Part shown: in pieces, positions 57,764 through 62,214 of the stretch
Layout: every line of letters begins with the position of its first letter
Numbering within the stretch: position 1 is the first letter of the stretch
Assembly: GCF_024347455.1 (NCBI RefSeq)
Contig: NZ_AP025483.1
Span: 1,302,001 to 1,366,000 of the forward strand
Direction: 5' to 3'
From: Vibrio echinoideorum
Lineage (GTDB): Bacteria > Pseudomonadota > Gammaproteobacteria > Enterobacterales > Vibrionaceae
DNA: 64,000 bases
The notes under the pieces: model-generated
Database searches by the model: none
What the model saw: only the letters and a program-made list of their open reading frames with translations
Told to the model about the DNA's origin: nothing
Program-made: the position numbers and the translations under genes

Positions 57764-59166
<1,403 letters not shown>

Positions 59167-59634
59167 TTATAATTTACATACTACGTCGTTAACTTTACGC
59201 CACGTAGATAAGAACTCAAAGAGACCGTAAATTAAGGTGTAAAAGCCAATCAATAGAAAAAAATTGTCCCAGTTGAGCTTGAAGCTAGTCTTCAAAAACC
59301 AAGAAAACATATCATTTTCGGGCATGAAAATAGAAAACACCATAAATATACAACTCGTGATTAAGGCTAAACCTGTGGTTGCGAGGTTTTCCATCAGCGG
59401 GTGGTACAAGTTGGTGCTCTTCATGTTGGCGATGAGTTGATTTTTGGAATTAGAAGAAATAAAAGTTATCGATGCCATTACAAATCCAAACAAAATACCA
59501 GCTACAGTAGCCAATGGGCTAGCTATAGCTATGATTCTGTCGTGTGTTGGCTCTGCAGTAAAAGTGAGTACAGGGCATATAACAACAGCACTGTAAAATA
59601 ACTTCGATTTACTAAACTTAAATTCTGATATCAT
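59167..59634 (-). CDS. Four-helix membrane protein, RexB-like topology
   Basis: A 155-residue protein with four hydrophobic segments (~residues 13-28, 33-58, 86-106 and 122-143). A basic, polar loop (SSNSKNQLIANMKSTN) separates the second and third. It starts 6 bases after the upstream soluble-protein gene and ends at a terminator, so the two form a unit. Size, topology and order resemble lambda RexB (144 residues, four helices), the membrane-depolarising partner of RexA. Sequence identity was not computed, so this is a structural guess. Other four-helix effectors of abortive infection are possible. Confidence 0.7.
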   Translation of the reverse strand: MISEFKFSKSKLFYSAVVICPVLTFTAEPTHDRIIAIASPLATVAGILFGFVMASITFISSNSKNQLIANMKSTNLYHPLMENLATTGLALITSCIFMVFSIFMPENDMFSWFLKTSFKLNWDNFFLLIGFYTLIYGLFEFLSTWRKVNDVVCKL

Positions 59635-59640
59635 TTTTCA

Positions 59641-60609
59641 CTATCTTTTTTGATGGTAGTACTGCAACAAGGTATCTTGGCACCTCGTTTTTGCAAAAAC
59701 TAATGTCTGACGCATACCTTGTAATGTCGGATAGCCTTTAACTACGTTTACATCTAGTTTAGTCGATAGATCTTGGTTGAGAAGAGTTTGTTTCTTTCCA
59801 CCACTTTTTAAAGTGACTTCCGCTTTTTTGATTGCGGGCTCCGATTTACCAAGTCTACGACTTGTGCCATAAGTACTAATTAACTCCTTGATACCGGCAC
59901 GAATATTATCATTAAGATAGCCTTTCTCAGTTTTTCTACCTGCTCGACCCCAAAAGTTTATCGCAAGACGACTCATACCAGTAGATGACATCATACTAAT
60001 GATCTCTTTGCTCCAAGAATTAGACAAATCTAAGTTTGATTCAGAGAAGTTACGTGGTAGAGCAAGTGTTAAAGACCCATTTTTGATCACATTGTTATTT
60101 TCTAGCAGAGCTTTGATATCTGCGTCTTTCCAAATAGGTTCAAAATGTACTCTTTTTAGACCTCCAAACATGTATAACAGGTACCCCAAGTCATCGGCAC
60201 GAGGGCCAAGGTGGTTTTGGTGGAATACGAGAATGTCTGTTTTTGGGTAATACAAGAAATAACTTTTTTCCATAATCTCTTCTTGGTTGTCCAAGTCGAT
60301 ATTTTGGTCAATCAGTGTATCTTTATTAAACTTTGTTGGTAGCGTCGTGTCTCTAAATGTACCGACATAACCGAAATAAAATTCAGCATCTTTGTCCCAT
60401 TCAATAATGGAAAGAACTAGGTCACGTGTAGATGTTTTGGTTGTCGAATTGTTAGTCAACACACGAGTTTGCAACTTTGGTTTTGTTGACTTAGAGAAAT
60501 GGTCTTTCCATAAGCTACCAAATTGTAGTGGGGCATTTAGAGTTTTACTCTTATCATCTTGCCCAGTTATAAAAAAAGTCACTTTAACTTTTTTAGTATC
60601 AACGCTCAT
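59641..60609 (-). CDS. Unrecognised soluble protein, RexA-like position
   Basis: A 322-residue protein without signal peptide or membrane segment, beta-rich in the first half (KVTFFITGQDDKSKTLNAP, FYFGYVGTFRDTTLP). A striking segment is SYFLYYPKTDILVFHQNHLG (~136), followed by ADDLGYLLYMFGG. The C-terminal third is basic (KKAEVTLKSGGKKQ), possibly for nucleic-acid binding. I cannot assign a family with certainty. Together with the membrane protein behind it, the pair looks like RexA (279 residues, cytosolic DNA-bound sensor) followed by RexB. It is AT-richer than its neighbours. Confidence 0.72.
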   Translation of the reverse strand: MSVDTKKVKVTFFITGQDDKSKTLNAPLQFGSLWKDHFSKSTKPKLQTRVLTNNSTTKTSTRDLVLSIIEWDKDAEFYFGYVGTFRDTTLPTKFNKDTLIDQNIDLDNQEEIMEKSYFLYYPKTDILVFHQNHLGPRADDLGYLLYMFGGLKRVHFEPIWKDADIKALLENNNVIKNGSLTLALPRNFSESNLDLSNSWSKEIISMMSSTGMSRLAINFWGRAGRKTEKGYLNDNIRAGIKELISTYGTSRRLGKSEPAIKKAEVTLKSGGKKQTLLNQDLSTKLDVNVVKGYPTLQGMRQTLVFAKTRCQDTLLQYYHQKR

Positions 60610-60660
60610 TAATTTACCATACTTGAATTTGATATGCTGTTGCGGCGCATTATGCTACTT

Positions 60661-60687
60661 AATTGATTTAAAGGAAATTAATCAATT
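60661..60687. promoter_or_regulatory. Inverted repeat upstream of accessory unit
   Basis: AATTGATT at 60661-60668 and AATCAATT at 60680-60687 form perfect eight-base arms 51 bases before the soluble-protein start. It is a possible operator over its promoter. Confidence 0.45.
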
Positions 60688-60721
60688 GCAATTATTTGAA
60701 GTGCAAAGTAGTTGATAGTTG

Positions 60722-60763
60722 GTCGAATTTACCCCCGTGATACAACACGGGGGTAAATTCGAC
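60722..60763. repeat. 18-bp perfect inverted repeat with 6-base loop
   Basis: GTCGAATTTACCCCCGTG (60722-60739) and its exact complement (60746-60763) flank ATACAA. There is no T-run on either side, so it is not an ordinary terminator. Confidence 0.85.
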
Positions 60764-60883
60764 GAACAGCATTAGAAGAATGGATAACTTCTAGTAGGGC
60801 AAAACCCCATGAACAGGGTGTGAATGAGTAAAAGGTTTAAGCAACTTTAGGGCATCAACGTGTTAGCTAATAACACTTAGTGT

Positions 60884-60991
60884 TTATGATTGCCTGCCGA
60901 TAAATTTGAAGAGACATCCATTGTCATAGTGGATTTCCAAAGCTTCGTACTCTTGCTTCAAATCCCACCCGTAACATTCCACTTCAAACAT
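60884..60991 (-). pseudogene. Short open frame, possible remnant
   Basis: A 35-residue frame (starting MFEVECYGWD, containing EYEALEIHYDNG) with a weak ribosome site. The last two thirds read like the end of a small folded domain, reminiscent of KTSC-type proteins. This is a low-confidence call. Confidence 0.25.
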
Positions 60992-61557
60992 CTTCGAGAC
61001 TAAAAAAACTATCAAGTTGCTCTTCTAAAAGAAATGAGCCATTTGGGGCGGCCGAGTTCCCCCCGAACTCGACCTGTTCCAGACGCGCAAGCAAAGGCGT
61101 TTGGTTTCTGGCGTACTCATAAATTAACCAATTTCAGTTTGTTGTGTAAATAATCAATAGTTTGGCAATTGATAGGTAGGTCGTATTTTGCTGTGCAAAA
61201 GCATAGAAATGAATGATGGCGAGAGTGATGCCTGAGCTCATGCAAGGAGGCTGGCGTATTGAAGTGAAAGGGCTGACACAATATGAAACATAGCTTGCTA
61301 GTTAATAATATCGTTAAATTTTAATTTGTAGGGATTTATAACTAGCTAGTGGAGTGTGCTAGTTTTAAGAGTTGGTCATCTTTTATTCTGGTGTTATACA
61401 CTGCTTTTGAATTTCAAGTTGGATTTAGTGTCTGAATTATTAAATCTGACGGGATAAATGATTGTTTAATGTTGATTTGACAAGATCTTCAAGTATCCTT
61501 TATGTAAATAAAACGTTAAATATCGAAAGTAAATTAACAATCATTAAGGAGTCGATG

Positions 61558-62214
61558 ATGTTACATGCTCACGAAAATACCCTACATATTACCCACCTCA
61601 GTAACCACGCAGTTAAGGAGTTGTCACCATCATTCTCTAAGCTACCAAGCACAGAGCATGCGGATGGCCAGTTTCGATTGAGAAGGTACTCAGTGGTTCA
61701 ATTCAGTAATGGACAAGTCGTTGAGCAAGACAAACATAACTTTGTTCAGTCTGAAGATGTTAATCACTTTCAAGGTGATGTGGTTCGTCAATTCGAAGCT
61801 GTTGAACAAAATATTCTAAACGGTCAAGGCATGCAGGAAATGTGTGAGCTGTTTATTGAAACCAACGGGCTTGAAGACGGGCAAGAAATCGAAATCCATC
61901 AAATCCGTATCGCTGCTATTTATGAAGAAACTCAAGTAGCACCAGAAGGTGTTCATCAAGACGGTTTTGACCACATTGCGATTATTGGTGTTACTCGCCA
62001 CAACATTGTTGGTGGTGAAGTGATGCTTTATCAAGACAGTCATGAAGCGCCATTTTTTAGAAAAGTGTTAGGTGATGGCGAGGTTGCGATGCTGGCAGAC
62101 AGTAAGCTTTGGCACAATGCACAACCGATTCGCACCATTGACCACGATGAGATGGGCTATATGGATGTGTTTGTTCTAACGGCTAAGGATGCGCGCAATG
62201 TCCTTCACTCTTAA
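61558..62214 (+). CDS. 2OG-Fe(II) dioxygenase family protein
   Basis: A 218-residue protein of the 2OG-Fe dioxygenase type related to free amino-acid hydroxylases. The iron triad is visible as GVHQDGFDH (HxD, ~residue 139) and WHNAQPI (distal His, ~190), followed by Arg in the cosubstrate position. ATG 61558 lies six bases after AAGGAG, with another ATG three bases upstream. It overlaps the next gene by 17 bases, so the two work together. The substrate is unknown. Confidence 0.85.
   Translation: MLHAHENTLHITHLSNHAVKELSPSFSKLPSTEHADGQFRLRRYSVVQFSNGQVVEQDKHNFVQSEDVNHFQGDVVRQFEAVEQNILNGQGMQEMCELFIETNGLEDGQEIEIHQIRIAAIYEETQVAPEGVHQDGFDHIAIIGVTRHNIVGGEVMLYQDSHEAPFFRKVLGDGEVAMLADSKLWHNAQPIRTIDHDEMGYMDVFVLTAKDARNVLHS

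Follow-up and report, generated by a model that had tools for sequence, protein, structure and literature searches.

The window analysed here, a 64,000-nucleotide stretch of the Vibrio echinoideorum genome (contig NZ_AP025483.1, positions 1,302,001 to 1,366,000), carries two adjacent genes on the minus strand between core genes, and the question raised by this locus is whether the two genes form a chromosomal relative of the RexA/RexB pair of phage lambda. RexAB is described as the first abortive-infection system linked to phage defence, and its activation is still unexplained (PMC12894663). An earlier note, made from the letters of the DNA alone, had proposed such a RexA/RexB-like reading, which the present analysis supports: the two genes probably act as a Rex-like abortive-infection system and travel as exchangeable defence cargo, the Rex scheme being the best reading because of the predicted fold, the constant pairing and the genomic setting.

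The first gene (59641..60609, ATG start), recognised from the list of open reading frames (ORFs) and by fold and profile comparison, encodes a soluble RexA-like protein of 322 residues. It is followed after 6 bases by the gene (59167..59634, ATG start) for a RexB-like membrane protein of 155 residues with four predicted membrane helices, recognised by profile, by the PADLOC RexB model and from the structural model. The layout described in the earlier note, and the likeness in size that it saw to lambda RexA (279 residues) and RexB (144 residues), are thus confirmed, as is the basic C-terminal third of the soluble protein (21 lysines and arginines against 8 aspartates and glutamates in residues 217-322). 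The soluble protein has no hydrophobic segment at any point of the chain. In the membrane protein, four hydrophobic segments were found at a mean hydropathy cut-off of 1.2 and three at 1.4, where the first falls short; the AlphaFold2 model contains long helices at residues 9-25, 31-61, 77-103 and 122-154 and two short ones. A hairpin followed by a T run (59149..59168, minus strand), just past the second stop codon, is terminator-like and a candidate for the shared terminator noted earlier because of this position, the scan itself counting three hairpin-type sites in the region against 2.4 expected from shuffled sequences; the same scan found no promoter-like site upstream of the pair on the minus strand. 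Positions 59001-61000 have a GC content of 37-39%, lower than that of trxB (43-48%) and of the dioxygenase ORF (40-46%), and the interval from trxB to the 2OG-Fe dioxygenase-like gene holds no other long genes. The AT-rich stretch between core genes was therefore borne out for the composition and for these two anchors, while the aminotransferase also mentioned there is a name given by the earlier note.

The structural comparison suggested in that note yielded a RexA-like fold for the soluble protein. Its predicted structure consists of a split globular domain (residues ~1-160 and 296-322) around a four-stranded, dimerization-like domain (~175-290), that is, the two-domain arrangement of RexA, and the match to RexA was listed by the second structure aligner only; the soluble protein thus has, as a model, the predicted fold of lambda RexA. 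Profile comparison by hhalign of 43 members of the soluble family with 33 RexA-family sequences gave a score of 33.7 (P 9.1e-4) over window residues 63-163, which was reached by none of 300 column-shuffled and none of 102 reversed and rotated RexA-side decoys (best decoy, 28.1). The sequences dropped beforehand were P0001 (identical to the window protein) and P0031 (a fragment) from A1, P0037 from A2, and P0059, P0067, P0074, P0082 and P0094 from the RexA set A3.

Comparison of 30 members of the membrane family with seven RexB sequences (six distinct, two being identical; L011-L020, at least 98% identical to lambda, and the partial L024 were left out) gave a score of 32.0 (P 1.7e-4), in register with RexB, and neither the 300 column-shuffled nor the 156 reversed and rotated decoys reached it (best decoy, 21.3). 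PADLOC RexB is also the model matched by most members of the membrane family (9 of 22, best 1.6e-5), and by profile the membrane protein is distantly related to RexB. The PADLOC KwaB and Pfam GntP permease matches of the same protein were dismissed as matches between membrane helices, and its VIA-align rows (NINJ1, vinculin and others) were read as generic helix bundles. For both proteins, the relatedness to the lambda sequence families as measured by profiles lies above the decoys, yet it is remote. Both belong to phage protein families, the soluble protein matching PHROG 7651 over residues 4-320 (4e-65) and the membrane protein matching PHROG 8552 over residues 5-152 (1.2e-29), both labelled function unknown.

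Relatives were found by tblastn, protein search and whole-genome search, and the family contains at least 34 further homologs of the soluble protein; back-translated scans of viral and genome contigs found no relative. Twelve loci were read: the window, G497, G609, G011, two contigs of G102, Vibrio phage PQ189356, cdtI, 733R5, CP054241, NZ_CP104632 and CP031370 (NC_009514 and ON470622 being left out, and 34 soluble homologs lacking genomic context), and in 12 of the 12 the soluble gene is followed immediately by a relative of the membrane gene. Ten pairs were measured, and their two genes overlap by up to 8 bases or stand up to 23 bases apart. The soluble gene of CP031370 is matched as two separate pieces and has no annotated coding sequence; the partner on the second G102 contig, 162 residues long, contains four hydrophobic segments and matches the family hidden Markov model (HMM) weakly.

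In the four E. coli elements (cdtI, 733R5, CP054241, NZ_CP104632), the Q antiterminator stands on one side of the pair and the lysis genes on the other, with the pair reading from the opposite strand; cdtI and CP054241 have a methylase and a small ORF in the same interval. G102, one distant relative with a repressor-adjacent arrangement, carries consecutive genes for a CI-like repressor (28-31% identity among the rows listed), a RexA-like and a RexB-like protein, which is the lambda order; the element also contains a Mu I-like protease gene. The same genome contains a second DUF6731 gene with a membrane partner (L093, 894-2229), again presumably near a Mu I-like gene. In G609 a distant chromosomal pair (L057, 8197-9704) has a small helix-turn-helix-like gene upstream and neighbours that we take to be rpoD-like and msrA-like; within the 18 kb read, none of the genes was recognised as a phage gene.

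In PQ189356 (Varidnaviria, Vinavirales, with an annotated PM2-like capsid protein), the pair follows the integrase gene, and a distant pair stands at the same place beside the integrase in G011 (L003, 181-2896, and L058, 7878-10524, respectively). The two integrases are 98.4% and the two capsid proteins 98.9% identical, whereas the soluble proteins share 24% and the membrane proteins 30% identity over the aligned parts, so near-identical backbones of tailless prophages carry two lineages of the pair. The PM2-like capsid protein was found in 44 phage records (at least 80% identical in 30), and one Vibrio record matched the window protein; judged from these records, most copies of the tailless backbone carry no near relative of the pair. 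The G011 element adjoins what we take to be a dusA-like gene. Tailless Vibrio prophages are described as integrating in dusA and as having a variable accessory locus in which defence genes are overrepresented (PMC11630473), a paper in whose main text the word Rex does not occur.

The distribution is patchy. The soluble family was found in 4 of 227 genomes of the same genus and in 2 of 274 class-sample genomes, one being the window's own. The PADLOC RexB model matched in 1 of 369 genomes of the class and DUF6731 in 2 of 321, one over the cut-off. A search of 5426 E. coli genomes gave 23 with the cdtI subtype and 73 with the NZ_CP104632 subtype (the match spans most of the query in 72 of these), two separately counted sets that may overlap.

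The site itself is probably a place of exchange. Its left anchor is the core gene trxB (57764..58723, minus strand; 73% DNA identity to E. coli trxB; present in 147 of 148 genomes) and its right anchor is the 2OG-Fe dioxygenase-like gene, assigned by similarity (61462..62214, plus strand; 108 of 148). The two genes face each other on one contig within 30 kb in 101 of 148 same-genus genomes (7 of the 108 do not have them so), and 68 of the 101 gaps measure 993 bases or less (65 at 316-675), the other 33 measuring 1.4-24.7 kb. Parts of the left border of the insert (58846..59180) are present again where the site is filled in other genomes. A search of 38 site loci found the right border module (60720..60870), complete or partial, in 9, beside different cargo. 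Such reuse of border pieces around unlike cargo, clearest in G018, makes it probable that cargo was swapped between common borders. A 22-nt inverted repeat (60718..60767, 95% complementary, 6 nt between the arms) lies upstream of the pair within the right border.

The genome G497 carries the same pair at the same site, with 95% identical DNA over 4.6 kb and proteins 99.7% and 99.4% identical. Cargo elsewhere includes PD-Lambda-1 (G009, 2.8e-178), Thoeris ThsB (G006, 3.3e-60) and AbiJ_NTD4 (G018, 2e-21, Pfam), and 54 ORFs of 23 more genomes gave PADLOC matches at 1e-10 or better that include AriA, NsnB, PD-T4-2_B, HEC-03B and several candidate families (25 of 39 families listed). The scan covered these 54 ORFs and nine chosen ORFs of five genomes; the cargo of G486 and G617 (44 of 98 ORFs) and of G011 lay outside it. 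Transposases, as we take them to be, stand at some filled sites.

Other features of the site were observed in passing. Positions 58957-59009 of the window resemble the 3' end of a 128-residue gene (DUF6575 in G005, L062), an apparent remnant noted together with the loci L061, L062, L084 and L086; several further copies of the site keep this gene whole, which suggests that it belongs to the scaffold of the hotspot. In G005 the site holds a 1278-residue protein without a Pfam or PADLOC match at E 0.01 (L062, 300-4136), possibly a defence gene. Two further soluble-plus-membrane pairs occupy the site in G598 (L079, 897-2528; soluble protein matching the PADLOC candidate PDC-M18A at 2e-65) and G477 (L085, 3703-5092; soluble protein without a Pfam match). 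No clear sequence link to the Rex families was found for them, all eight hhalign scores (9.9-17.5) being below the best decoys (28.1 and 21.3) and the sole hmmsearch match, that of the G598 membrane protein to the family HMM (E 0.002, 9-sequence set), having a bias of 9.2 above its score of 7.3.

Several results count against a Rex relationship or against a defence role. RexA was not among the 50 Foldseek rows listed for the soluble model, the PDB matches of the membrane model are generic helix bundles, and its viral structure matches have E 0.046 or worse. The hhalign probabilities are low, 23% on the RexA side and 49% on the RexB side, falling to 12.5% with smaller RexA-side alignments and below 2% against the single lambda proteins RexA and RexB. 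The Pfam models RexA and RexB match neither window protein, even with E allowed up to 10; at the same limit RexA (PF15969) matched 0 of 35 members of the soluble family, and RexB (PF15968) gave no match to the window membrane protein, 25 of 59 families being listed for its relatives. Single-profile searches of Pfam, NCBIfam and PADLOC matched weakly or not at all; PADLOC had no match whatever for the soluble window protein, hmmsearch of both family profiles against PDB sequences returned nothing, RexA included, and the family HMMs (11-sequence sets) reached the lambda proteins only at E 0.059 (RexA) and 0.022 (RexB). The accepted Rex-like pair Sbash gp30/gp31 was not linked to the window families by hhalign; nor was gp30 detected from the RexA family, and in the comparison of gp31 with the RexB family, 5 of 100 shuffled decoys and none of 60 reversed ones scored as high as gp31. 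No repressor gene adjoins the pair in the ORF list of the window, so that there is no co-transcription with a cI gene. The filled site of G017 holds a GGDEF protein, which is not a defence gene, and those of G024, G569 and G011 hold what we take, by eye, to be metabolic and transport genes. The literature searched, excluding most subscription papers and all preprints, holds no phage assay of the family.

If the pair works as the better-studied Rex systems do, the RexA-like protein would be a DNA-binding dimer that senses an intermediate of phage replication or a protein-DNA intermediate and, once triggered, activates the four-helix membrane protein, which would oligomerise into a channel or pore; membrane potential or integrity would then be lost, ATP would fall, and macromolecular synthesis and growth would stop, leaving the phage cycle unfinished, and this shutdown of the infected cell would give protection. 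The window protein may likewise dimerise and bind DNA, to judge from its predicted fold and its basic C-terminal third. The RexA-like proteins of lambda, Sbash, CarolAnn and Toast dimerise and bind DNA without sequence preference (PMC11077077), and the proposed scheme for lambda, Sbash, CarolAnn and P. putida is that infection is sensed by the RexA-like protein, which then activates its membrane partner, so that the membrane loses its integrity and growth is arrested (PMC12894663). The roles may also be reversed, the soluble RexA-like protein being a toxic effector that the membrane protein keeps inactive until infection, as is reported for gp30/gp31 of mycobacteriophage Butters (PMC12894663), and the gene order and topology would look alike; nevertheless, the membrane protein is the effector in four of the five described Rex-like systems that this 2026 paper counts, and we regard the reversed scheme as unlikely. 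The greater uniformity of the membrane protein (mean column identity 61%, against 50% for the soluble protein) does not decide this question.

Less likely still is a modulator of the lysogeny switch stranded on the chromosome, acting on phage or host DNA without a present defence role. RexA of lambda needs no RexB to bias the bistable switch (PMC11077077), and the G102 relative directly follows a CI-like repressor gene; however, no repressor adjoins the pair in the window or in the four E. coli elements opened, the flanks are the same in G497, where both proteins are 99% identical to those of G000, and the trxB-dioxygenase site holds defence genes in other genomes.

A Kiwa-like system, with a four-helix membrane protein and a DNA-binding, KwaB-like DUF4868 partner, is improbable. 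One relative, P0023, is named a DUF4868 domain-containing protein in its source, and PADLOC KwaB gives a weak match (E 0.02), but it is the membrane protein that gives this match, as does 1 of 22 members, and DUF4868 matches 0 of 35 soluble-family members. KwaB does not appear among the structural matches listed, an absence that carries no weight. The gene order in Kiwa is kwaA-kwaB, whereas here the soluble gene comes first. An ordinary accessory membrane-protein operon without any phage link would agree with the non-defence genes at some filled sites (GGDEF, and by recognition pteridine, transport and others) and is equally improbable given the predicted-fold match, the phage location of relatives and the constant pairing in the loci read.

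A Rex-like abortive-infection pair therefore remains the preferred reading, and on the predicted fold and the adjacent four-helix gene the window pair would fit the Rex-like two-gene systems in the broad sense of PMC12894663. It differs from lambda RexA/RexB in lying outside the Pfam RexA and RexB models, in the length of its soluble protein (322 against 279 residues), and in its position on the chromosome between core genes, with no repressor link, instead of in an immunity region. Sbash gp30/gp31 and CarolAnn gp44/gp43 have the same architecture and membrane topology as the window pair, and a 165-residue Sbash protein (gp31 by its length) was the third viral structure match of the membrane model (E 0.39, probability 0.87). 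Anti-phage activity was tested for RexABpp of P. putida prophage P1 (PP_5643/PP_5644), whereas the window pair is known from sequence. The nearest named family is Pfam DUF6731 (PF20505), which matches 8 of 35 members of the soluble family (best 1.2e-7), is the RefSeq name of cdtI-type E. coli relatives in the 10 records listed of 23, and is exceeded in its cut-off by the G102 protein that precedes the 162-residue membrane protein; the window protein itself (E 0.0095, 15.9 bits) lies below the 27-bit cut-off.

Within the limits of the literature search given above, no description was found of a DUF6731-type Rex family or a Vibrio RexAB-like defence system, of the trxB site as a Vibrio anti-phage hotspot, or of RexA/RexB treated together with Kiwa. 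We lean, with rather less assurance than for the pair itself, to the broader view that DUF6731 and its relatives form a third large Rex lineage that moves between two viral realms (tailed lambdoid and Mu-like phages on the one side, tailless PM2-like phages of Varidnaviria on the other) and into a chromosomal defence hotspot, where it would be a stand-alone abortive-infection system free of prophage and repressor. The family would add a lineage to the few Rex-like systems studied, widening this defence family, and its members in E. coli prophages would allow the trigger and the membrane step to be compared across independent pairs in laboratory E. coli. It would also give a testable meaning to DUF6731, PHROG 7651 and PHROG 8552, all labelled unknown, and would make the trxB-dioxygenase interval of the genus a place to seek further defence genes.
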